A stretch of DNA of 32,118 nt from Acidimicrobiales bacterium (GTDB taxonomy: Bacteria; Actinomycetota; Acidimicrobiia; Acidimicrobiales; QHCF01). The notes beneath the pieces are model-generated. The model was not told the DNA's origin. It worked only from the letters and a program-made list of their open reading frames with translations, and did no database searches. This document shows positions 5,345 to 32,118 of this stretch, piece by piece. Made by a program: the position numbers and the translations under genes. Position 1 is the first letter of the stretch. The number at the start of each line of letters is the position of its first letter. The stretch lies in the NCBI GenBank assembly GCA_003244275.1, contig QHCF01000144.1:1-32118 (forward strand), in the 5' to 3' direction.

Positions 5345-6726
5345 GGGCCGGATGCCGGGAGCTCGACCACGAAACGAGACCCTCCGCCCGGGCGGTCCTC
5401 GACCCATGCCCGACCGCCATGTAAGTGGGCGTGCTCGGTGACCAGGGCCAAACCCAATCCGGTGCCCTCCCCGTCGCCCCGGCGGCCACCGGTCGACCCC
5501 CGAGAGAAGCGCTCGAACACGCGGCGGCGGTCCTCGGCCGGCACGCCGGGGCCGGCGTCCTCCACCACCAGGCGGACCTGTCCCTCGTGGGCCTCCACTC
5601 CCACCATGGTGGCGCCCCCTGCGTAGGTGTACGCGTTGTCGACCAGGTTGGTGATGATCCGCTCGATCCTGCGCTTGTCCACCCGTACAACGAGGGCTGT
5701 GGCCCCGGGGCCGATCTCCACCGGGACGTCTGGTGCCCGGGTGACTCGCACGGCCTGGCGCACCACCTCGTCAAGGGGCACCTCGTCCAGCGACAGCTCG
5801 GCCGCCCCAGCATCAAAGCGGGAGATCTCCAGCAGGTCGGTGACCATGTGCTGGAAGCGGCTCATCTCGGCTATCAGGAGGTCGAGGGCCTGGCGGGACC
5901 GCTCGGGCAGCTCCTGGCGGCGGGACTGGATGATCCCCAGCGAGGTGGCCAGGGTGGTGAGCGGGGAGCGCAGCTCGTGGCTCACGTCGGAGGTGAACCG
6001 GGCTTCCCTCTCGATGCGGGCCTGCAGGTTGTCGGCCATCTGGTTGAAGGAGGAGGCGAGGGTGGCCAGATCCGCCTCGTCAGCCGTCTCCAGGCGGGTG
6101 TCGAGACGTCCCCCGGCAATGGCGGCGGCCACCTCGGCCACCTCGCCCAGTGGCCGCAGAGCCCGGCCGCTGGCCCACCGGCCCAGCACGGCGCCGCCCA
6201 CGGTGGTGGCCAGGGCCGCCCCGGCCAGCGACAGTGCCAGGATCCGAAGGGTGCGTTGCAGATCCTGAAGGGAGAAGACCTCGAAGTAGGCGGCGCCCAC
6301 CTCGGGCACGGGTAGGCCCACCTCGAGTTGCGGCACGCCCCCCACCTGGTGGTACTGGCGCGCTGGCGCGCCATGGGTGACCACCAGGTCCTGCATGGCC
6401 GGGGAGATGGCATCCTGGCCCACGCCGAGCGAGGTGGCGTACCAACGTCCCCGGTCGTAGAGCACCGAGTTGGACCCCGGCACGGTGTCCAGCGAACCCA
6501 ACAACCCAACGATGTCGGCGCCCGGCGAGCGAAGGGTGCTGCGAACCAGGGCGGCGTTGACGTAGGCCTGGCGCAGGACGGCGGCGCTCTGGTTGGCCAG
6601 GGTGGACTGACGGGCAGCTGCATAGGTGATGATCGACATGGACGCCGACAGGACCAGTGCTCCGAGGGCGAAGGCGGCCGTGACCCTGGCCCGCAGCCCG
6701 AGGCGCAATCGGCGCCGGGGCCTCAT
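5341..6726 (-). CDS. mtrB: Sensor histidine kinase, MtrB-like
   Basis: A membrane histidine kinase of 461 aa. It has an Arg-rich N-terminus, TM1 (about 14-37), an extracytoplasmic loop (38-158), TM2 (about 159-182), HAMP (183-236), and HisKA with phosphoacceptor His250 in SDVSHELRSPLTTL. The ATPase part has NLVDNA (360-365), DAGPG (390-394) and GTGLGLAL (421-428). It lies 37 bp after an MtrA-type regulator and overlaps the GerMN lipoprotein by 4 bp, the MtrA-MtrB-LpqB order. In mycobacteria and corynebacteria that system senses envelope or osmotic state and controls wall hydrolases. The periplasmic loop is somewhat shorter than in mycobacterial MtrB. The start is uncertain: ATG 6726 or GTG 6744, neither with a clear ribosome binding site. 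Confidence 0.85.
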   Translation of the reverse strand: MRPRRRLRLGLRARVTAAFALGALVLSASMSIITYAAARQSTLANQSAAVLRQAYVNAALVRSTLRSPGADIVGLLGSLDTVPGSNSVLYDRGRWYATSLGVGQDAISPAMQDLVVTHGAPARQYHQVGGVPQLEVGLPVPEVGAAYFEVFSLQDLQRTLRILALSLAGAALATTVGGAVLGRWASGRALRPLGEVAEVAAAIAGGRLDTRLETADEADLATLASSFNQMADNLQARIEREARFTSDVSHELRSPLTTLATSLGIIQSRRQELPERSRQALDLLIAEMSRFQHMVTDLLEISRFDAGAAELSLDEVPLDEVVRQAVRVTRAPDVPVEIGPGATALVVRVDKRRIERIITNLVDNAYTYAGGATMVGVEAHEGQVRLVVEDAGPGVPAEDRRRVFERFSRGSTGGRRGDGEGTGLGLALVTEHAHLHGGRAWVEDRPGGGSRFVVELPASGP

Positions 6727-6763
6727 GGCGTTCGGCTGGGGCACGAAGTCAGGACGCCCAGCG

Positions 6764-7444
6764 TCAGGCCACCACCTTGTAGCCGAGACCCCGTACCGTG
6801 ACCACATGGCGGGGGTTGGCCGGGTCGTGCTCCACCTTGGTGCGAAGCCGACGGACGTGGACGTCCACCAGACGGCCGTCACCAAAATAGTCGTAACCCC
6901 ACACTCGTTCCAGGAGCTGTTCGCGCGAGAGCACCCGACCCGGATTGGCGGCCAGCTCGCACAGCAGGCGGAACTCGGTGCGGGTCAGATGGACCTCCTC
7001 GCCGCTGCGGCGTACCAGGCCCTGGTCAGGCATGATCTCCAGGTCGCCGAAGGCCAGGGGGGCGGAGCCGGGATCGGCTGCCTTGGCCCGGCGCAGCAGG
7101 GCTCGGATGCGAGCGGCCAGCTCCTTGATCATGAACGGCTTGGTGACGTAGTCGTCTGCCCCCGCCTCCAGGCCGGCCACCACGTCGTGGGTGTCGGAGC
7201 GGGCGGTCACCATGATCACCGGGACGGCACTGACCCGGCGAAGGGCTCGACAGCACTCGAAGCCGTCCATGCCCGGCAGCATGATGTCGATCAGTACGAC
7301 GTCGGCCGGCCGGCGGGCGAACGCCTCTAGGGCTTCTTCGCCGCTGGCCGCCTCGTCCGCCTCGTAGCCCTCGTCGTCCAGGGCCAGGCGCAGGGATGTA
7401 CGGATTCGCTCGTCGTCTTCCACGAGCAGGATTCGGCTGGCCAT
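6764..7444 (-). CDS. mtrA: OmpR-family response regulator, MtrA-like
   Basis: A 226-aa DNA-binding response regulator, partner of the kinase that follows. The receiver domain (1-118) has acidic pocket E9-D10-D11, phosphoacceptor Asp53 in LIDIMLPGMDGF, Thr80 and Lys102 in DDYVTKPF. The winged-helix domain (about 128-226) contains LTRTEFRLLCELAANPGRV and the segment VWGYDYFGDGRLVDVHVRRL, which closely follows actinobacterial MtrA. ATG 7444 is used; a TTG 6 nt further out is also possible. Two copies of a 13-bp repeat lie 29-63 bp upstream and may be an operator. Confidence 0.9.
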   Translation of the reverse strand: MASRILLVEDDERIRTSLRLALDDEGYEADEAASGEEALEAFARRPADVVLIDIMLPGMDGFECCRALRRVSAVPVIMVTARSDTHDVVAGLEAGADDYVTKPFMIKELAARIRALLRRAKAADPGSAPLAFGDLEIMPDQGLVRRSGEEVHLTRTEFRLLCELAANPGRVLSREQLLERVWGYDYFGDGRLVDVHVRRLRTKVEHDPANPRHVVTVRGLGYKVVA

Positions 7445-11740: not shown

Positions 11741-11783
11741 GTGGGCAAAAAAGGCCTTAGTGATCCGACGCTATTTTGCCCAC
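11741..11783. terminator. Bidirectional hairpin between serS and the fur-like gene
   Basis: Perfect 10-bp arms, GTGGGCAAAA (11741-11750) and TTTTGCCCAC (11774-11783), begin right after the serS stop. The interior holds the small palindrome AAGGCCTT and the stop codon of the convergent Fur-family gene. The right arm supplies a T-tract on one strand and the left arm on the other, so it could terminate both genes. Confidence 0.6.
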
Positions 11784-12215
11784 TCCAGCGCAGTCGGCGC
11801 AGCGCCCGAGCACTGCGAAGTGGCTGGGCCGGATGGTGAAGGAGTAGCCCTGGCGGAGCTGGTCGGCCAACTGGGCGAAAGTCGAGTCAGGGACCTCGAC
11901 CACTGCCCCACACCCCTCGCACACCAGGTGCTGGTGGGGCTGGTCGGTGAGGTGGTAGATGGCCCGGCCGTGGCCCAGGTGGACGTGGTCCACCAACCCC
12001 AGGTGCTCGAGGGCGTCGAGGGTGCGGTAGATGGTGGAGATGTGGATGTCAGGAGCGCTCTGCTGGACCAGGACGCCCAGGTCGTCGGCCGTCAAGTGGC
12101 TGCGGGCCATGGCCAGGGCGTCGATCACCGCTCGCCGGGCGTTGGTCAGGCGGGCACCGCGCTCTCGCAGGAGCTCGATGATGCGTTCGGTGCGCTCGGT
12201 TCCCGCCTCAGCCAT
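11757..12215 (-). CDS. Fur-family metal-responsive repressor
   Basis: A Fur/Zur/PerR-type regulator of 152 aa. The N-terminal winged helix includes GARLTNARRAVIDALAMARSHLTADDL and the recognition-helix region ISTIYRTLDALEHLGLVDHVH. The C-terminal dimerisation domain has a His-rich stretch and two CxxC pairs (CEGCG and CADCA) for structural zinc. Which metal it senses cannot be told by eye. The ATG at 12215 overlaps the phoU stop by 8 bp; a GTG at 12236 is the alternative. Its position at the end of the phosphate regulatory run is unusual for Fur. Its last codons lie in the terminator hairpin. Confidence 0.85.
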   Translation of the reverse strand: MAEAGTERTERIIELLRERGARLTNARRAVIDALAMARSHLTADDLGVLVQQSAPDIHISTIYRTLDALEHLGLVDHVHLGHGRAIYHLTDQPHQHLVCEGCGAVVEVPDSTFAQLADQLRQGYSFTIRPSHFAVLGRCADCAGVGKIASDH

Positions 12216-12903
12216 CGGGAGTGGTCGGTCGGGCACCTACGGGGGCGGGGGTCGGGAAGTCACCGGTGACCATGAACTTGACCCGCTCGCCGATGTTGAC
12301 GGCGTGGTCCGCCGTACGTTCGTAGAACCTGCCCACCAGGGCTATCTGCACGGCTCGCTGGATGGCCACCTCGTCGATGGTGGTGGCTCCCAGGACGGTG
12401 CGAAAGAGGTCTTTTTGCAGGTCGTCCATGACGTCGTCCATGTCCTCCAGGGCAGCCGCCTTGACTGGGTCCAGCTCGGCGAAGGCATCCATGGCCAGGC
12501 GCAGCTGGATGGTGGCCTGCTCGCGCATCCTGTCGATCAGGCCCCGTAGCTTGGGCCCGATGCCGTGGGGGTAGAGGCGCCGGCTGGCTTTGGCCACGTT
12601 GACCATGAGGTCGCCGGTGCGCTCCAGTTCGTGGATGACCCGCAGGATGGCTACCAGGACTCGCAGGTCAGTGGCCATGGGCGCCTGGCGGGCCAGCAGC
12701 AGGTAGGTGCTCTGCTCGATGGAGTGAGTGAGGGCGTCGATGGGTCGATCCTGCACGATGACCTGCTCCACCTCGGCCAGGTCGGCGTCGAGCAGAGCGG
12801 CGGTGGCCAGCTGGACCGACTCGACCACCAGGGCGCCCAGCCGGATGACATCCGAGGTGAGCTCGTGAAGGCTCTCGTGGAACGCCTTACGGGTCTCGGC
12901 CAT
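12208..12903 (-). CDS. phoU: Phosphate transport regulator PhoU
   Basis: A 231-aa all-helical PhoU protein, two repeats of a three-helix bundle. It links the Pst transporter to the two-component system and restrains signalling when phosphate is plentiful. The metal-binding E/DxxxD-type motifs are visible as ELERTGDLMVNVAK (first repeat) and RFYERTADHAVNIGER (second repeat). RQAPMATDLRVLVAILRVI is the standard conserved inter-helix region. Its ATG shares one base with the stop of the preceding regulator gene, so they are coupled. A Pro-rich tail follows the last helix. Confidence 0.94.
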   Translation of the reverse strand: MAETRKAFHESLHELTSDVIRLGALVVESVQLATAALLDADLAEVEQVIVQDRPIDALTHSIEQSTYLLLARQAPMATDLRVLVAILRVIHELERTGDLMVNVAKASRRLYPHGIGPKLRGLIDRMREQATIQLRLAMDAFAELDPVKAAALEDMDDVMDDLQKDLFRTVLGATTIDEVAIQRAVQIALVGRFYERTADHAVNIGERVKFMVTGDFPTPAPVGARPTTPDG

Positions 12904-13637
12904 CAGCCGGGTCCCTGGGCCTGGTCAGCAGTGCTGCGGGCCCGGGTAGTAGTGCGGGCCAGCTCGTACCGGTAACCGAGGCCCCGAATGGTGGTGATGA
13001 GCACCGGGCTGGCCGGGTCGATCTCGATGCGGGTCCTCAGCCGCTTGATGTGCACATCGAGGGTCTTGGTGTCACCCACGTAATGCGGACTCCACACCTG
13101 GTTGATCAGGGTGTCACGGGTGAGCACCCGACCGGCGTTGGTGAGCAGCAGCTCCAACAGCTCGAACTCCTTGAGCGGTAGCTGGACCTCCCGGCCCCGG
13201 ACGACGACCTCGTGGCGGCTGGGGTCGAGGCGGACCTCGCCCACCTCGATGGCCTCCAACCGGTCATCGCCCGCTTCGTCAGGCCGCGGTGCTCGGCGCA
13301 GGGCGGCTCGCATCCGGGCCACCAGCTCCCGCATCCGGTAGGGCTTGGTGACGTAGTCGTCGGCACCCACCTCCAAGCCGACCACGGTATCGATTTCGGC
13401 ACCCTTGGCCGTGACAATGATGATGGGCACGGTCGAGCGGGCTCGGATGGACCGGCACACGTCGATACCCGAGACCCTGGGCAACATCAGGTCGAGCAGG
13501 ACCAGGTCGGGGCGAACCGAATCGAACTTGTCGAGAGCTTCAGCACCGTCGCGAGCCACCTCGACCAGGAACCCCTCTCGCTTGAGTCCCAGGACCAGGG
13601 CATCGACGAATGACTCCTCGTCCTCTGCGACCAGCAC
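12903..13637 (-). CDS. regX3: Phosphate response regulator, RegX3/PhoB-like
   Basis: An OmpR/PhoB-family DNA-binding regulator of 244 aa. Receiver: acidic residues E5-D6-E7, phosphoacceptor Asp49 in LLDLMLPRVSG, Thr76 and Lys98 in GADDYVTKPY. The wording around VVGLEVGADDYVTKPY follows mycobacterial RegX3. The winged helix ends in VDP-type HIKRLRTRIEIDPASP and IRGLGYRYE, followed by a 20-residue Thr/Arg-rich tail. GTG 13637 is the only plausible start, since a stop lies four codons upstream in the same frame. It lies 17 bp after the kinase gene and next to phoU, so it very likely controls the pst genes above, where a PHO-box-like repeat is seen. Confidence 0.92.
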   Translation of the reverse strand: MLVAEDEESFVDALVLGLKREGFLVEVARDGAEALDKFDSVRPDLVLLDLMLPRVSGIDVCRSIRARSTVPIIIVTAKGAEIDTVVGLEVGADDYVTKPYRMRELVARMRAALRRAPRPDEAGDDRLEAIEVGEVRLDPSRHEVVVRGREVQLPLKEFELLELLLTNAGRVLTRDTLINQVWSPHYVGDTKTLDVHIKRLRTRIEIDPASPVLITTIRGLGYRYELARTTTRARSTADQAQGPG

Positions 13638-13654: not shown

Positions 13655-14968
13655 TCATCCAGTGCGGCCCGAGCGGCCTGGGATTTGCAGCCTGAAGGTA
13701 GACCCCTCTCCCTCCCGCGATTCCACCGTCACCCTTCCCTGATGATTGCTGGCCACGTGGCGAACGATAGCCAAGCCCAGCCCGGTGCCGCCCGTGTAGC
13801 GACTGCGACCCTGGTCGACCCGGTAGAACCTCTCGAAGATGCGTTCCAGGTCCCGGGCCGGGATCCCGACCCCGTGGTCGGCCACCACCAGCTCAACCAT
13901 GTCACCAGCCGCGGCAGAGCGGTCCTCCGGGGAGCACGGGACCACTCTCGCCGATATCTCGACCGACGAGTGGCGAGGGGAGTACTTGATGGCATTCTCG
14001 ACCAGGTTGTAAAGGGCCGACACCAGCTGGCGGCGGTCCCCCACGACGTAGAGGCCCTCAGGTGGCTCAGCGAGAGCCAGGGAGACACCGGCGGCCTCGG
14101 CCCCCGCCCGAGCCCGTTCCACGGCGTCGGCCATGACCAGGGCCACTGGGACAGGCTCGCGCGGCGGTGACTCCTCGGCCTCGATGCGCGACAGGTCCAG
14201 CAGGTCATCGATGATCCGGCTCACCCGAAAGGCCTCGTCCTCGATGCGCCTGGCCAGGCGCCGGATGACCATCGGCTCGCCCTCGGCCAGAATCGTCTCA
14301 GCCAGCAGGCCGAGCGCACCCACCGGCGTCTTGAGCTCATGACTGACGTTGGCCACGAAGTCGCGCCGCACTGCGTCCAGTCGGCGGCGCTCTGAGACGT
14401 CGTCGAGCACAGCCACCACGCCGAGCGGCCTGTACTCGTCGCCAATGGCATGCGTCCGCACGGTGAGGGTCTGGCGAGGTGGGCCATAGAGGTCTAGGGT
14501 GCGCTCGGCCGGCGTTCCTGCCGCGCTGGCGGCCAGGAGCTCCTCGACCGCCTGGGCAGCGATGACGTCGGTGTGCCGGCCGCCCATCAGGGCGGCCGCT
14601 CTGGCATTGCGGAAGGTGACGCGGCCTGAGTCGTCGCAGATGACCACACCCTGGGGCATGGCATCGAGGGCCTGGGCCAGGCGGGTCGCCTCAGCCCGGA
14701 CATTGCTCCTGGTCTCAGCGGCTCGCTCAGCGGCCCGATCGAGGAGGGAGAGGGTGGGTTCCAGGCGCATCCGGCGGCCAATCTCGGAGCTGTCGCTCAT
14801 CCGGTCAGCCAGGACCGCAAGTCGTTTGGCCAGTCCCGCCCGGGCCAAGTGCCGGCCGCTGATCCAGGCTCCCACGACGGCCAGTACAGCCAGGGCGATG
14901 GCGACACCGACCAGGGTGGCAGAGAGGGCCAGAGTGGCGGCTACGGCCGGGGTGATTGAGAAGGTCAC
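13655..14968 (-). CDS. senX3: Phosphate sensor histidine kinase, SenX3/PhoR-like
   Basis: A 437-aa kinase. One long or two short N-terminal membrane helices (about 8-37), a linker coil, a PAS domain (about 93-190, AMPQGVVICDDSGRVTFRN), HisKA with His210 in FVANVSHELKTPVGAL, then NLVENA (321-326), DHGVGIP (364-370) and GGTGLGLAI (393-401). The lack of a sizeable external domain and the PAS domain match SenX3/PhoR kinases, which read phosphate state through PstSCAB-PhoU rather than a ligand outside. Start GTG 14968 is chosen because it places the membrane helix at the N-terminus. The frame remains open to 15091, but that part would run through the inverted repeat at 15047-15099. Confidence 0.9.
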   Translation of the reverse strand: MTFSITPAVAATLALSATLVGVAIALAVLAVVGAWISGRHLARAGLAKRLAVLADRMSDSSEIGRRMRLEPTLSLLDRAAERAAETRSNVRAEATRLAQALDAMPQGVVICDDSGRVTFRNARAAALMGGRHTDVIAAQAVEELLAASAAGTPAERTLDLYGPPRQTLTVRTHAIGDEYRPLGVVAVLDDVSERRRLDAVRRDFVANVSHELKTPVGALGLLAETILAEGEPMVIRRLARRIEDEAFRVSRIIDDLLDLSRIEAEESPPREPVPVALVMADAVERARAGAEAAGVSLALAEPPEGLYVVGDRRQLVSALYNLVENAIKYSPRHSSVEISARVVPCSPEDRSAAAGDMVELVVADHGVGIPARDLERIFERFYRVDQGRSRYTGGTGLGLAIVRHVASNHQGRVTVESREGEGSTFRLQIPGRSGRTG

Positions 14969-15046
14969 CTCGTCGCCAGGGCAGCCGTCAAGCTGTCGGC
15001 CAGCCCGGCGCGGTCGCTGGACGGGGCGGCCGGCGGGGCGGCCGGT

Positions 15047-15099
15047 GGGCACTTGTGCGCGTTTGTGTCGTATATGAGAGCTGACGCGCACAAGTGCCC
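15047..15099 (-). repeat. Perfect 16-bp inverted repeat between pstB and the kinase gene
   Basis: Arms GGGCACTTGTGCGCGT (15047-15062) and ACGCGCACAAGTGCCC (15084-15099) match with no mismatch around a 21-nt AT-richer loop. It lies 9 bases beyond the pstB stop and about 80 bases before the kinase start. It may be a partial terminator or RNA-processing hairpin lowering expression of the regulatory genes relative to the transporter. The loop contains TATACG on the minus strand, which could be a -10, making an operator-promoter another option. Confidence 0.65.
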
Positions 15100-15107
15100 C
15101 AGGTTGG

Positions 15108-15884
15108 TCAACCGAACCGCCCGGTGATGTAAGCCTCCGTCCGGGGATCGGACGGTCGGGTGAAGATTTGAGAGGTGGGGCCCACCTCGACCAGCCGGCC
15201 CGGTTCGCCGGCTTCGGTGATGGTGAGGAAGGCGGTGGTATCGCTCACCCTGGCTGCCTGTTGCATGTTGTGGGTGACGATCACGATCGTGTAGCGGCCC
15301 TTGAGGTCGGCGATGAGGTCCTCTATGGCCAGGGTGGAGGACGGGTCGAGAGAGGAGCAGGGTTCGTCCATGAGCAGCACTTCGGGCTTCACCGCGATGG
15401 CCCGGGCGATGCACAGACGCTGCTGTTGGCCTCCCGAAAGACCAACGCCGGGTTTACCCAGACGGTCACGGACCTCGTCCCACAGCCCGACCAGTCGCAG
15501 AGACCGCTCAGCGACGTCGTCCATCTCGGCGTTGGAGACCGTTCCGTTGAGCCGCAGGCCAGCCACCACGTTGTCGCGGATCGACATGGTGGGGAACGGG
15601 TTGGGCCGCTGGAACACCATTCCGATGGTCCGCCGAACGGCGGTCGCGTCCTGGCCTCCGGCGTAGATGTCCTGGCCGTCCAGACGGACCTGGCCGGTGA
15701 TGCTGGCTCCGGTCACCACTTCGTGCAGGCGGTTCAGGACCCTGATGAAGGTCGACTTGCCGCATCCGGATGGCCCGATCAGGGCGGTGACCTGGCTGGC
15801 AGTGATGGCCAGGGAGACGTTCTCCAGGATCTGGTGGGCGCCAAACCAGGCACTCATCTCCTCCACGTCGATGCTCTTCGCCAT
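15108..15884 (-). CDS. pstB: Phosphate ABC transporter ATP-binding protein
   Basis: The ATPase of the high-affinity phosphate importer, 258 aa, normal length. Walker [10 protein letters not shown] (37-45), Q-loop in [10 protein letters not shown] (89-98), signature LSGGQQQR (149-156), Walker B VLLMDEP (169-175), D-loop SSLD and H-loop His205 in IVTHNMQQA are all intact. FQRPNPFP is characteristic of PstB among ABC ATPases. It follows the fused permease gene by 43 bp on the same strand. No clear ribosome binding site is visible before the ATG. Confidence 0.96.
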
Positions 15885-15927: not shown

Positions 15928-17856
15928 TCACGCCAGTCGATTGCGCCGGGTGATTACCCGGGCCAGGACAGTAAGGGCGACCACGATCAGGATCAGGACG
16001 AGTGCAGCCGCCCAGGCCCGGTTGACGGCCACCGCGAAAGCCGACGTCGCCTGGGAGAACACGAACAACGGCAGGCTGGATTGCGGACCGTGGAAGGGGT
16101 TGATCTTGATGGAGTCGAAACCGAAGGCGGTCAGCAGCAGCGGCGCCGCCTCCCCCGTCACCCGGGCTACCGCCAGTACCACGCCGGTGGTGATGCCGGC
16201 GGCTGCAGTGGGCAGCACCACAGAGCACACGGTACGCCACCGGGAGACCCCGAGGGCGTAGCTCGCCTCACGGAGGTCCGATGGGACCAGTTTGATCATC
16301 TCCTCGGACGAGCGGATGACTATGGGGAGCATCAGCACGGCCAGGGCCAGGGACGCGGCCAGTCCCGAGAAGCCCAGGCCAAGGCCGAGCACCCAGAAGG
16401 CGAAGATGAACAGCCCGGCCACGATGGACGGGATGCCCGTCATCACGTCAACGACGAAGCGGACCCAGTCGGCCAGGCGGCGATCGCTCTGCTCGACCAG
16501 GAAGACGGCTACCAACAGGCCCAGCGGTATGGACACCAGGGCGGCCATGCCGACCTGCTCGACCGTGCCCACGATGGCGTGATATGCCCCACCCGCCGGG
16601 TCGAGCGGCCCAACGCCCCGCATGGAATGAGTCAGAAAGGAGCCGGACAGATCCCTCGCCCCAGCGTGGGCCGTATAGGCCAGGACGGCCACCAGAGGCA
16701 CGAGGGCCACCGCCACCGCCACGGCCATGAGTCCTTTCATGGACCAGTCGACCAAACCACGATGTCGATGGCCCGGGTGCCGGCGGCCCGCGCCCCGCAG
16801 GCGGCGGAGACGGCGGAGCCGGTCGGGGGGCGCCGGGCGGGTCCGCACCCCTTCACCGCCCCTGCGGACCACCAGCCGGGCGGCCAGGTTGACGGCCAGT
16901 GAGATCACGAACAGGACGAGCCCGGAGGCGATCAGCGCGGCCCGTCCGTTGGCCCCGGCCTCGCCGAACTTGGTGGCGATGTTGGCCGCGATGGTGTTGC
17001 CGCCCGGTTGGAAGATTCGGAAGGTGATCTTGAACGAGGCCGACAACACCAGGGCGACGGCGATGGTCTCGCCTATGGCGCGACCCAGGCCGAGCATGAT
17101 GGCGCCGATCAGGCCGCTGCGACTCGGGGGCAGGACGGCCATGCGGATGGTCTCCCAACGGGTGGCACCCAGCGCCAGAGCCGCTTCTCGGGCCGATCCA
17201 GGAACCTGACGAAGCACCTCTCGGGAGATGGCGGCGATGATGGGCAGGATCATTATGGCCAGCACCACCGAGGCGGCGAAGACTGACCGCCCATAGGTCT
17301 GGTTGGGGCTGTGGAGGAAGGGGATGAAGCCGAGGAAGCCGTCCACTCCCCGCTCGAAGGGGACCAGCAGGGGAACGAGGAAGGCCACCCCCCACAGGCC
17401 GTAGACCACGCTGGGTACCGCGGCCAGCAGGTCGACCAGCCATCCCAGGGTTCTGCTGACCTTCGGGCGGGCTACCTCGGTCAGGTAGAGAGCGGTCCCC
17501 AGCGCTACCGGGGTGGCAATGAGCAGGGCGATGGCGCTGGACAAGACGGTGCCCCAGGCCAGTGCGGCAATGCCGAAATGTGGGGGTGTCGAGTCAGGCA
17601 GCCATTGCCGCATTGTGAAGAAGCCCGGGCCGGCCTGGCGAAAGGCAGGGACGGCCTGAACCACCAGGAAGGCCACGATGGCGCCCAGGAGCAGCAATAC
17701 CAACAGGCCGGCACCCCGGGTGACCATGGCGAATATGGCATCACCTCGTGCTCGTCGGTGGCCTGGTGCGGGCGGGTCGGTGCCCGCCTGGCTGATCTCG
17801 CCGGGCGATATGACAGGCGGCGGTGGCTGGACCCGACCCGGCGCCGAGCCGGGCAT
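15928..17856 (-). CDS. pstCA: Fused PstC-PstA phosphate permease
   Basis: One uninterrupted 642-aa frame encodes both permease subunits. Residues 1-332 are PstC: a Pro-rich cytosolic start, TM at about 46-70, and the coupling EAA motif [20 protein letters not shown] (224-243). Residues 333-370 are an Arg/His-rich linker. Residues 373-642 are PstA, with EAA motif [20 protein letters not shown] (530-549). The start ATG overlaps the pstS stop (TGATG). An internal ATG at 16740, where separate PstA would begin, has no ribosome binding site, which supports one polypeptide. Separate proteins made by internal initiation remain possible. The open frame continues upstream to 18807, but that part is a shadow of pstS. 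Confidence 0.88.
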
Positions 17857-19004
17857 CAGGGCACCACCCGGGCCAGGGCCGCCCGGTCGGCGGCGAGCAG
17901 GCTGGGCGGCAGGGGAGCGTAGAAGAGGGGGCGGGTGGCCACCTGGCCTGGCCCCAGGGCGTAGGTCAGGAACGATGAGAGCAGGGCGGCCTGCCGGGCA
18001 TCTGGCTGGCGGGTGTACACCATGACCCAGGTGAGGGTGGATATGGGGTAGGCGGCGGGACCGCCGGGCAGGGGGCTGAGCTGGGTGGTGCCGGCCCCTG
18101 AGGTCTGGCCGGCCCCGGTCCCGACCTGGCTGTCGCCGTCCTTTCCTCCGCTGGCGGTGGCCGACTGCAGGGCGGCCGAGACGGCGTTGGCGCTCGGTCC
18201 CACGAAGTGCCCGGCCGGGTTCTCGATCTGGGTGATCCCCAGACCGGTGGCCTTGGCGTAGGCGACCTCGGCGTAGCCGATAGCTCCTTCGGACTGCTCT
18301 ACGGCCGCGGTGACCTGGTCCGACCCCTTGGCCCCCTGGCCGGTCGGCCAGGCCACCTCCTTCCCCGATCCGGCCTTCCACAGCGAAGGGGCGGCGGCGG
18401 CCAGATAGCGGGTGAAGGCGGCTGTGGTCCCCGAGCCGTCCGAGCGGTGGACCACCTGGATACCCTCGGCGGGCAGCGCCGTACCTGGATTGTCGGCCTG
18501 AACGGCCGGCTCGCTCCACTTGGTGATGGTGCCGGCGAAGATGCCGGCGAGGGTACGCGGACGCAGACGTAAATGGTGCACGCCTTCTAGGTGATATTCC
18601 ACTGCGACCCCGCCGGCTGCCCACGGGATCTCCAGCACCGGGCCCCCGTGGGCCTGAGCGGACCGCAGCTCGGTCGGTGTCATCACCACGTCGGAGGCGG
18701 CAAAGCCCACCGTCTGGGCAGTGAGCTGTTGGATGCCTGCCCCTGACCCCGCCCCCTGGTAGTTGATGGTGGCCCTCGGACAGGCTCGCTGGTAGCCGCT
18801 GATCCATTCCTGGAGGATGGTCTGGACAAACGTCGAGCCGGCACCCGAGATGGTCCCGATCCCACAGGTGCTGCCCGGGCGCAGGTGAGAGGGGACGATC
18901 AGGGCCAAGCCACTGGTGTTGTCATCGGTGCCGAACCTGGCGCCCAGCGCCACCAGGGCCACCGCCACCAGGACACCAGCGAGGCGACCAGGCCAGCGAG
19001 GCAC
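17856..19004 (-). CDS. pstS: Phosphate-binding protein PstS
   Basis: The extracytoplasmic phosphate receptor of the Pst importer, about 382 aa. The N-terminus (PRWPGRLAGVLVAVALVALGA) is a signal peptide or anchor without a lipobox. Phosphate-site features are visible: ISGAGSTFVQTILQEW, NYQGAGSGAGIQQL, FAASDVVMT, and HRSDGSGTTAAFTRYL. A roughly 35-residue Gly/Ser-rich insert (ATASGGKDGDSQVGTGAGQT region) is unusual. The frame is open from 19097, but a PHO-box-like repeat and a possible -10 lie inside that extension. I therefore favour GTG 19004, 7 nt after TAGGGT; GTG 19013 is the other option. Confidence 0.9.
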   Translation of the reverse strand: MPRWPGRLAGVLVAVALVALGARFGTDDNTSGLALIVPSHLRPGSTCGIGTISGAGSTFVQTILQEWISGYQRACPRATINYQGAGSGAGIQQLTAQTVGFAASDVVMTPTELRSAQAHGGPVLEIPWAAGGVAVEYHLEGVHHLRLRPRTLAGIFAGTITKWSEPAVQADNPGTALPAEGIQVVHRSDGSGTTAAFTRYLAAAAPSLWKAGSGKEVAWPTGQGAKGSDQVTAAVEQSEGAIGYAEVAYAKATGLGITQIENPAGHFVGPSANAVSAALQSATASGGKDGDSQVGTGAGQTSGAGTTQLSPLPGGPAAYPISTLTWVMVYTRQPDARQAALLSSFLTYALGPGQVATRPLFYAPLPPSLLAADRAALARVVP

Positions 19005-19011
19005 CAGGTGC

Positions 19012-19055
19012 ACCCTAGGAGCCAGGATTGACCGCCAGGTGTACTCCAGATGAAC
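19012..19055 (-). promoter_or_regulatory. PHO-box-like direct repeats and -10 before pstS
   Basis: Read on the minus strand there are three contiguous 11-nt units: GTTCATCTGGA (19055-19045), GTACACCTGGC (19044-19034) and GGTCAATCCTG (19033-19023). They resemble the 11-nt G(T/G)TCA-type units bound by actinobacterial PhoP. Five bases later comes TAGGGT (19017-19012), a possible -10, then 7 nt and the GTG at 19004. The spacing places the repeats over the -35 region, as in activator-dependent phosphate promoters. The regulator encoded at 12903-13637 is the obvious candidate ligand. Confidence 0.65.
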
Positions 19056-19127
19056 ACCAGGCAAACGGCCGCCAACAAGCGGGGGTTGCCCCTTCACTGG
19101 CCGCCTGGCCGGGAGTGGAGCGGAGCA

Positions 19128-19277: not shown

Positions 19278-20720
19278 ATGGACAAACGGAGCCGCCGCCG
19301 CTGGCGGGAGCAGGGAGAGGGACGGCCACAGCCGGCAAGGCCCTCCGGCGGGCATACTCGGCAGCCCCGACCAACCCGACCGTGCCGACCAAGCGGCGCT
19401 CGGCGTTCCTTGGCCGAACCCAGAGAGATCGAAGAGGGGGTGGGTCTGGCCGTCAGCGCCTTTCGCCAAGGCCAGGAGGAAGTCTTCGCCATGCTGGTGG
19501 GGTCGCTCGCCCTTCGTTGGGACGAGGCGACTGTGGCCAGCTCAGAGGGAGCGGCCGGCTCGGTGACAACCGCGGCGCCTGTTCCATCGATCATCGAGCG
19601 TCGCTTGGAGGAGGCCATCGGTACAGCGTGGGCCCACGGATGGCAGCCCGCCGATCTTCCGAGGGCGGTGGGCCGCAAGCTCAGTGGCCGCCACCTACGG
19701 CTGAGTGTCGACGCCATCGCTGGGGAGAGTCGGCGTTACGCCGGATCGGAGGACGCCGATCCGGAGTGGTTGCGCCAGCTCGAGGAGATCGAAGCTCGCG
19801 TCTGGTGGAACAGTCAGTCCGATCACCTTGGTTGCTGGATCTGGCGAGAGGGGCTTGACCGGGCCGACGGCCTGCGCCACGCCCTCGAGCTCCTGGGCGC
19901 TCTCTGGGAGCTGCCAGGCCTGCCCCGACTGTGCGTTCCGCCGTCCGAGTGGGGCCACAGTGCTGGCAGTGCTGGCGGTGGCCGCGGAGGACGCCGGGCC
20001 GTCAGGGGCCAGGGTGCCGACCCCCGGGTACTCCACCGAGTGAGGGCGTTACTCGCCAAGGCTGAGTCCACCACCTTCCCCGACGAGGCCGAAGCCCTTA
20101 CCGCCAAGGCCCAGGAGCTCATGACCCGACACGCCATCGACCGCGCCATGATCGAGCCGGACGGTGGCCCGGGTGCCATCCCCAGCGCTCGGCGCATCGG
20201 GATCGACGATCCGTACGCCTCGGCCAAGTCCTACCTGCTGCACCAGGTGGCGGCGGCCAGCAACTGTCGAGTGGTCTTCAGCAAGGATCTGGGATTCTCG
20301 ACCGTGTTCGGTTTTGACTCCGAGCTGGACGCGGTTGAGCTGTTGTTCACCTCGTTGCTGGTCCAGGCGACGGCGGGGATGGCGGCGGCTGGAGTCGATC
20401 AAGCCAGCGGAGCTCGATGGCGCAGCCGCTCGTTCCGCCAGTCGTTTCTCGTCGGCTTTGCGGTTCGCATCGGCGAGCGCCTTCGGGAAGCAGCGGCGGC
20501 GGCCACCGAGGAGGCGGAGGCCGACCATGGAGGGCGCCTGCTGCCGGTGTTGATGTCGCGCGCCGAGGCCGTGAAGCAGGAGCGGGATCAGACCTTTCCC
20601 GACCTGGCCCACCATCGTTTGGGAGCGAACGACCCGGCCGGCTGGACGGCTGGCCGGGTGGCCGCCAATCGGGCCTCGCTGGGGACCGGGCCAGGCCTGG
20701 AGACTGCCCGATCAGCCTGA
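19278..20720 (+). CDS. DUF2786 domain-containing protein
   Basis: A 480-aa cytosolic protein with a very clear start (GAGGAGGAGCGGAG before the ATG). The first 45 residues are basic and disordered-looking. Residues 50-215 are helical and not recognised. A Gly/Arg-rich hinge (228-246) leads to a DUF2786-like domain (about 250-290: VLHRVRALLAKAESTTF, DEAEALTAKAQELMTRHAI). The C-terminal half contains FSTVFGFDSELDAVELLFTSLLVQA, ARWRSRSFRQSFLVGFAVRIGERL and HHRLGANDPAGW. Function is unknown; DUF2786 proteins also occur in phages and conjugative elements. It lies between the pst block and the secretion-like locus and may belong to neither. Confidence 0.8.
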   Translation: MDKRSRRRWREQGEGRPQPARPSGGHTRQPRPTRPCRPSGARRSLAEPREIEEGVGLAVSAFRQGQEEVFAMLVGSLALRWDEATVASSEGAAGSVTTAAPVPSIIERRLEEAIGTAWAHGWQPADLPRAVGRKLSGRHLRLSVDAIAGESRRYAGSEDADPEWLRQLEEIEARVWWNSQSDHLGCWIWREGLDRADGLRHALELLGALWELPGLPRLCVPPSEWGHSAGSAGGGRGGRRAVRGQGADPRVLHRVRALLAKAESTTFPDEAEALTAKAQELMTRHAIDRAMIEPDGGPGAIPSARRIGIDDPYASAKSYLLHQVAAASNCRVVFSKDLGFSTVFGFDSELDAVELLFTSLLVQATAGMAAAGVDQASGARWRSRSFRQSFLVGFAVRIGERLREAAAAATEEAEADHGGRLLPVLMSRAEAVKQERDQTFPDLAHHRLGANDPAGWTAGRVAANRASLGTGPGLETARSA

Positions 20721-30015: not shown

Positions 30016-30141
30016 TGCCCCGCATCCTACGGCGTGCCTCCCCTTCGTTGGTCAGGCCAGGAGGCTGGGACGGGTGAGAATGTTTGCCCACTGTTCAGCT
30101 CCTGGTTACCGTCCAGCCCCTCGCCAGTCGGAGGCCGGGTC

Positions 30142-30147
30142 TAGGTT
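30142..30147 (+). promoter_or_regulatory. Possible -10 before uppP
   Basis: TAGGTT fits TANNNT, 26 nt before the uppP GTG. Initiation near 30154 would place the small ATG at 30160 almost at the 5' end. No -35 is evident. Confidence 0.25.
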
Positions 30148-30173
30148 GAGCACCTGCCCATGGATGCCCGAGC

Positions 30174-31058
30174 GTGAGCTTTTTACAGGCCATCATCATC
30201 GGGCTGATCCAGGGCGTGACCGAGTTGTTCCCGGTGTCCAGCCTCGGCCACGCCGTGGTGCTACCCGCCCTGTTCGGATGGCACAACGTGGTGGCGGCCC
30301 AGAGCGCCAAGGAGTCCTTCTTCCTCGCCTTCCTGGTCGGGCTGCACGTGGCCACCGCCCTGGCCCTGCTGGCCTTCTACTGGCGAGACTGGGTGGCCAT
30401 CGTCTCGGCGCTGATCCGCTCCATTCGTCGGCGCAGGATTCAGACCAGCACCGAGCGCCTGGCGTGGCTGCTCGTCATAGCTACCATCCCGGCCGGTCTG
30501 ACCGGCCTCGTGTTCGAGAAGACCCTGCGGACACTGTTTGCCAAGCCGCTGGCGGCCTCAGTCTTCCTGTTCCTCAACGGGTTGGTGCTCCTGGGCGGCG
30601 AAGCGGTCCGTCGGCGGGCTGCGGTCCGCCAGAAAGTTCCGATCAGGGGACCCGACCCAGGACCGCATCGTCGCCTGGAGACCTTGCAGTTCCGGGAGGC
30701 CGGAGTTATCGGAGTGGCCCAGGTCCTGGCCCTGCTGGCCGGGATCAGCCGCTCGGGGATCACCATGGTGGCCGGCCTGGTCAGGGGCCTGGACCATGAG
30801 GATGCCGCCCGGTTCTCCTTCCTGCTGGCGACCCCCATAATCCTGGCCGCCGGCGTTTACAAGCTGCCTGATCTCCTCGGGCCCAATGGACACGGCGTGA
30901 GGGCTCAGATCCTGGTCGGGAGCCTGGTTGCGGGAGTCGCCGCCTACCTGTCGGTCCGCTACCTGGTGCGCTACTTCCGCTCCCACAACCTGGTCCCGTT
31001 CGCCGCCTACTGCCTGGTGGCCGGCGCCTTGTTGATCGTCCGCTTCAGCGTGGTTTGA
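30174..31058 (+). CDS. uppP: Undecaprenyl-diphosphate phosphatase
   Basis: A polytopic membrane enzyme (UppP/BacA), 294 aa, that recycles the lipid carrier for peptidoglycan and other wall polymers by hydrolysing undecaprenyl diphosphate. The first conserved region is GLIQGVTELFPVSSLGH (10-26), carrying the catalytic-type Glu and the SSxGH motif. The second is AQVLALLAGISRSGITMVAG, where the usual Pro before G-x-SRSG is Ala. RGLDHEDAARFSFLLATPIILAAGVYKLPDL follows, a wording I associate with an actinobacterial branch of the family. The GTG overlaps the stop of a five-codon reading frame that begins at 30160. Confidence 0.93.
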   Translation: MSFLQAIIIGLIQGVTELFPVSSLGHAVVLPALFGWHNVVAAQSAKESFFLAFLVGLHVATALALLAFYWRDWVAIVSALIRSIRRRRIQTSTERLAWLLVIATIPAGLTGLVFEKTLRTLFAKPLAASVFLFLNGLVLLGGEAVRRRAAVRQKVPIRGPDPGPHRRLETLQFREAGVIGVAQVLALLAGISRSGITMVAGLVRGLDHEDAARFSFLLATPIILAAGVYKLPDLLGPNGHGVRAQILVGSLVAGVAAYLSVRYLVRYFRSHNLVPFAAYCLVAGALLIVRFSVV

Positions 31059-31922: not shown

Positions 31923-32068
31923 CGCCCCAGTCTGCCTGACCGAGATGCGACCCTGTTCGTCGTCCTCACTTCACCTGGACGCTACCCAATGGCTACTCAC
32001 CGTCAATGTCGGTTCGGTACTGTCCCAAACGATCGTTACTCGAGACTTGCAACCATTGGGGGGCGTCC

Positions 32069-32118
32069 ATGCCGTTTCGCTTTCGTGGCAGTATCCTGAT
32101 CGCCACCCTGCTCGCCAC
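32069..32118 (+). CDS. Start of a secreted or membrane protein, cut by window edge
   Basis: The ATG at 32069 follows GGGGGGCG and opens a frame reading MPFRFRGSILIATLLA, a basic start and hydrophobic run typical of a signal peptide or anchor. It runs off the window, so nothing can be said of the function. The 146 bases before it (31923-32068) hold no gene I can support and are less GC-rich, as expected of a promoter region. Confidence 0.4.
   Translation, partial: MPFRFRGSILIATLLA

Follow-up and report, generated by a model that had tools for sequence, protein, structure and literature searches.

A predicted phosphate-starvation promoter and a putative leaderless pstS start in an Acidimicrobiales genome

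Genes and promoter elements at the pst locus

The minus strand of the window, by which we mean the entire 32,118-nt stretch of DNA analysed, carries an apparent phosphate-acquisition operon running from pstS to phoU (Table 1). Directly upstream of pstS, positions 19066-19004 read GTTTGCCTGGT GTTCATCTGGA GTACACCTGGC GGTCAATCCTG GCTCC TAGGGT GCACCTG GTG. An original prediction for this region had described, at 19055-19012, three 11-nt units followed by TAGGGT and, 7 nt further on, a GTG. Each of these elements is exactly as described, while the count of units fell short by one: four positions lie in register, the upstream unit (19066-19056) having been overlooked. PHO boxes are recognised as contiguous 11-nt direct repeats, at least two in number, that share a GTTCACC-like core and are situated in the -35 area of a promoter and upstream of a phosphate-acquisition gene. 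Here, four in-register units match the core at 5, 6, 6 and 4 of its 7 positions and precede pstS (TIGR00975), where they extend into the -35 area. The core used for these comparisons is the Streptomyces PhoP consensus, taken from reviews.

Table 1. Positions of the promoter elements and genes of the pst locus in the window.
Feature	Position	Strand	Remarks
Unit 1 (weak), GTTTGCCTGGT	19056..19066	-	5/7 core matches; R1 of the relatives' model aligns from 19061
Unit 2 (strong), GTTCATCTGGA	19045..19055	-	6/7 core matches
Unit 3 (strong), GTACACCTGGC	19034..19044	-	6/7 core matches
Unit 4 (weak, -35 position), GGTCAATCCTG	19023..19033	-	4/7 match to GTTCACC
Spacer GCTCC, 5 nt	19018..19022	-	Length constant among relatives
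-10 element TAGGGT (TANNNT)	19012..19017	-	
Predicted transcription start, G of the GTG start codon	19004	-	Predicted from the 7-nt spacing
pstS, 382 aa from the putative leaderless GTG	17856..19004	-	TIGR00975 equivalog
pstC + pstA, one uninterrupted frame	15928..17751	-	TIGR02138 then TIGR00974; pstC start approximate
pstB	15108..15884	-	
senX3/phoR-like sensor histidine kinase	13655..15091	-	PAS, HisKA, HATPase
regX3-like OmpR-family response regulator	12903..13637	-	Predicted reader of the repeats
phoU	12208..12903	-	TIGR02135

From pstB to phoU the intergenic gaps measure at most about 20 nt, and the order pstS-pstC-pstA-pstB-kinase-regulator-phoU recurs in L225, L226 and L126 (G007, G014 and L126). 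The single frame at 15928-17751 possibly encodes a PstC-PstA fusion; among the relatives, L127 aligns across both parts in one stretch and L225 does not. Two flanking genes may be mentioned in passing. Upstream of the promoter, a divergent gene (19278-20720) encodes a DUF2786/DUF7168 protein, while at the other end a gene for a Fur-family regulator (11757-12236) overlaps the 3' end of phoU. No counterpart of the latter was found in L225 or L226 by tblastn.

Specificity of the promoter pattern

Chance similarity within G+C-rich DNA is the first alternative to be weighed, and loosely defined patterns lend it some substance. Two-unit matches with at most one mismatch are frequent, with 142 in the genome as compared to 67 in a reversed control, and this pattern was dropped as unspecific. 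The complete layout was evaluated with a calibrated, sequence-only model, for which 36 pstS promoters from same-order relatives were used and the window was left out. A genome scan had been suggested with the original prediction. Run with this model over a fragmentary, G+C-rich assembly (247 contigs, 88% complete, 6.5% contaminated), and with scores being those of the best 150 of the first-look candidates, it gives the site at 19012-19055 the top rank in the 2.27-Mb genome (E = 2.2e-5, 25.8 bits). Within the window only, and with filters off, the site has an E value of 3.4e-7, the next place reaching 0.019. A matrix made from relatives only scores the site at 37.4, whereas nothing in 1.93 Mb of sequence generated by a first-order Markov model attained 14. 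Since the model excludes the site it detects, and since position and register are conserved among relatives (see below), a comparative result which in practice refutes chance, coincidence is hardly credible as an explanation.

Conservation of the layout

Upstream regions of pstS from same-order genomes formed the comparison set. Genome contigs were searched with an alignment as query, a single-protein query giving no match. Most same-order pstS genes are preceded by two GTTCACC-N4 units, with TANNNT lying 5 nt, or 5 nt and whole 11-nt steps, beyond the end of a unit. Two units in a fixed 5-nt register with TANNNT score at least 12 of 14 in 69% of the 88 upstream regions. At a threshold of 11 of 14, the same geometry is present in 78% of these regions, whereas 1760 dinucleotide-shuffled sequences yielded no case.

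When 60 promoters are aligned, column counts resolve four unit positions, followed by 5 nt and TANNNT. The first two positions are strong, the third is unconserved, and the fourth shows partial conservation, with the pattern G-[GT]-[CT]-C-A-C-C. Unit 4 of the window is in keeping with the first five letters of this pattern, G-[GT]-[CT]-C-A. The strong pair occupies positions 2-3 in the window as opposed to positions 1-2 in most relatives; this is the window's only variation in layout, and L010, L066 and L068 tend in the same direction. The reading of the repeats as a PHO box is thus borne out by comparison, the same geometry of repeats, -10 element and start recurring before pstS across the order.

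Beyond the order, the same register was observed upstream of pstS in loci from Micromonospora, Actinomadura, Streptosporangiaceae, Planosporangium and, from metagenomes, Frankiaceae. Five loci from cultured Frankia score low: both strong units are present and the hexamer is absent from its expected place. The layout was absent from the non-actinobacterial control loci (Gemmatimonadetes, cyanobacterial and Pseudomonas). Given its recurrence in several actinobacterial groups and its absence from these controls, the architecture of units and -10 element is, as far as sequence comparison can tell, a general actinobacterial feature rather than one peculiar to this genome.

The start codon of pstS

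The longest pstS frame begins at GTG 19097, as originally noted, and the GTG at 19004, which shares its frame with the stop codon at 17856-17858, lies well inside it. Leaderless starts in actinobacteria are marked by TANNNT about 12 nt upstream (PMC3160421), and in M. tuberculosis the centre of this motif falls 7-12 nt ahead of mapped transcription starts (PMC3898074). The first T of TAGGGT at 19017 lies at a comparable distance from GTG 19004, and the 18 nt preceding this codon, GCTCCTAGGGTGCACCTG, contain no Shine-Dalgarno sequence.

Relatives provide a broader view of this arrangement. Among same-order pstS genes with the module, 17 of 69 (window included) have an in-frame ATG or GTG 6-9 nt past TANNNT. 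A Shine-Dalgarno-like motif precedes two of these 17 genes as opposed to 45 of the other 52. The counting rule left out two further close relatives, L063 and L069, whose starts lie at a distance of 6 nt. With its 7-nt distance and no Shine-Dalgarno motif, pstS of the window falls into the leaderless class, like most of its closest relatives. In addition, alignment of PstS with its same-order relatives revealed no homologous N-terminal extension, the relatives' proteins starting at this same promoter or just past it.

These observations must be set against the possibility that PHO box and promoter are real and pstS is nonetheless translated from GTG 19097 or another leadered start, with a promoter further upstream. 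No stop codon interrupts the frame as far back as GTG 19097, long open frames being cheap in a G+C-rich genome. Translation from that codon would, however, turn the operator itself into coding sequence and give PstS a terminus that its relatives lack. A leadered start also sits poorly with a gene whose class is nearly devoid of Shine-Dalgarno motifs, and another upstream candidate, GTG 19013, straddles the end of the -10 hexamer. We regard GTG 19097, the first of the frame, as very unlikely to be the start, and the leadered alternative as a whole as highly improbable. Class membership, the lack of an N-terminal extension and the published distances between TANNNT and start led us to accept the leaderless GTG 19004, which is well supported by these comparisons and agrees with what was originally predicted. 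The N-terminus of PstS would then be 31 residues shorter than that of the longest frame.

A peculiarity of the protein itself is a phenylalanine codon (TTC, 18933-18935) where aligned relatives have the lipobox cysteine (GARFGTDD as compared to GACGTDN), which may mean that PstS is not lipidated or else that the sequence is in error. A PstS paralogue on another contig (C50) retains a lipobox-like AACGS.

The regulator

The gene at 12903-13637, located as originally noted, encodes receiver and OmpR-type DNA-binding (winged helix) domains beside the PAS/HisKA kinase and phoU, and qualifies as RegX3-like. Its best match among solved structures is RegX3 of M. tuberculosis (2oqr, E = 5.4e-80), for which the site G[T/G]TCAcc-n4-cG has been reported (PMC7884335); the proposed link between a regX3-like gene and the repeats is strengthened accordingly. 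In the C-terminal recognition-helix region, 27 of 38 residues are identical to RegX3.

Conceivably, another OmpR-family protein, MtrA-like or orphan, reads the repeats, with phosphate as one input among several. The genome encodes about 15 response-regulator homologues, and in Microlunatus a GTTCACnnnnnGTTCaC motif is bound by PolR (PMC6754071). Still, the operon's own regulator is nearest to RegX3, clearly ahead of MtrA (E = 3.8e-57), and both its recognition-helix region and the reported RegX3 site point to the repeats as its target. We therefore consider another reader unlikely and the RegX3-like protein the probable one.

A second response-regulator gene in the window (6716-7429) is 44% identical to the RegX3-like one and contains two in-frame TGA codons; it may be a pseudogene or else reflect a frameshift or an assembly error.

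Proposed regulation of the operon

We hold it to be highly probable, judging from sequence comparison, that 19066-19004 is the promoter by which the pst operon responds to phosphate starvation, at which a RegX3-like regulator occupies four units and from which a leaderless pstS and a self-amplifying transcript are produced. Upon phosphate limitation, the SenX3/PhoR-like kinase would phosphorylate the RegX3-like regulator, which would then bind head to tail on the four in-register units, the middle two being strong. Unit 4, 5 nt from TAGGGT, occupies the place of the -35 element, and bound regulator may substitute for the missing -35 contact and recruit RNA polymerase. It is this position of unit 4 from which we infer activation rather than repression. 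Transcription would start at GTG 19004 or within one base of it, yielding a pstS mRNA that has neither a leader nor a Shine-Dalgarno sequence, and would run on through pstCA, pstB, kinase, regulator and phoU. Given the short gaps from pstB to phoU, one transcript would produce its own activator, and the operon may thus amplify itself while supplying its own PhoU brake, forming a feedback loop.

Each component of this arrangement resembles a known system. As in mycobacterial SenX3-RegX3, a phosphate-starvation response would be mediated by a regulator whose closest solved homologue is 2oqr, on units resembling the reported RegX3 site. In mycobacteria, senX3-regX3 and the pst genes lie apart. 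Here, unlike in mycobacteria, kinase, regulator and phoU share an apparent operon with pstSCAB, downstream of the PHO promoter. The PHO boxes of Streptomyces PhoP are likewise 11-nt direct repeats with a GTTCACC core, arranged before pstS as core and weaker extension units (PMC7866108, PMC4415409, PMC2605767, PMC6283541), as in S. coelicolor and S. lividans. The boxes of S. lividans pstS, however, lie at -141 to -113, and the gene hence probably has a leader, whereas in the window the four unit positions abut a putative leaderless start. An experimentally leaderless Pho gene is known in phoR of S. filipinensis (PMC6283541). Relative to the leaderless TANNNT promoters of M. tuberculosis and S. 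coelicolor, in which the first T lies about 12-13 nt before the start and no Shine-Dalgarno sequence is present (PMC3160421, PMC3898074), there is no substantial difference, save that here a regulator unit fills the -35 position.

There is good reason, from these likenesses, to see the site as a new instance of the actinobacterial PHO box with a leaderless start and not as a new system. We found no literature on pstS or the Pho regulon in the Acidimicrobiia. The results indicate that the phosphate-starvation regulon of this little-studied, uncultured actinobacterial class uses the same operator code as those of Streptomyces and mycobacteria.

Related sites elsewhere in the genome

The layout is not confined to the main pst promoter. 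The second-best match in the genome (E = 0.0045) reads GCTCACCGCCT GTTCACCAATG GTGCACCTGGC CGTCAACCACG CCTGT CACGGT GTGACCC ATG and lies ahead of a gene for a 586-aa PF04185 phosphoesterase that seems to bear a signal peptide (L220:2592-4411, contig C64). It shares the register and a leaderless-type ATG 7 nt past the hexamer, with CACGGT in place of TANNNT. A different PF04185 phosphoesterase in G027 carries the module as well, with an ATG 8 nt past TAACGT. Upstream of the second pst operon on contig C50 (pstB-pstS-pstC-pstA; L221:5361-5424) the sequence is CAGCACCGTAG CGTCGCCTCCC GTTCGCCTGTC GTTAACCAGGG TTCGT TACCTT GGCGTC GTG, in which GTTCGCC/GTTAACC units are followed by 5 nt, TACCTT and, 6 nt on, a GTG. 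Its score is weak (8.1 bits with the relatives' model) and its register is that of the main pst promoter. In relatives, matches to the model precede genes for pstC, pstB, PhoU, PhoX and calcineurin-like phosphoesterases, and also genes for ammonium transporters, tyrosine phosphatases and response regulators.

It seems somewhat more probable than its opposite that the regulator units keep a fixed 11-nt phase relative to the -10 element across the Actinomycetota, that one Acidimicrobiales-related branch additionally keeps the start codon 6-9 nt past this element, and that the units, promoter and start codon there make up a single module, about 65 nt long, which is found again at different phosphate genes and is suited to predicting both the regulon and true start codons in uncultured genomes. 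A matrix in strict register could, if so, correct start codons and predict regulon members without cultures. The strict phase, and the locked start codon in one branch, are useful for annotation and unsurprising to the specialist.

Two weaker PHO-like sites occur in the window. One, at 30093-30174 (matrix score 14.5), lies upstream of uppP. No such site was found upstream of uppP genes in relatives, and given this lack of conservation we rejected it as a regulon site, it being probably fortuitous or lineage-specific. The other, at 31969-32069 (matrix score 18.5), is followed just beyond the end of the window by an assembly gap (N). Its conservation before an ABC transporter found no support in a relative, in which the match at the corresponding position belongs to a different gene, that of a phosphoesterase. 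This second site precedes, by 45 nt, the ATG of a gene for a substrate-binding protein, with permease and ATPase following, and the binding protein resembles, below the cut-off, 2-aminoethylphosphonate transporters.
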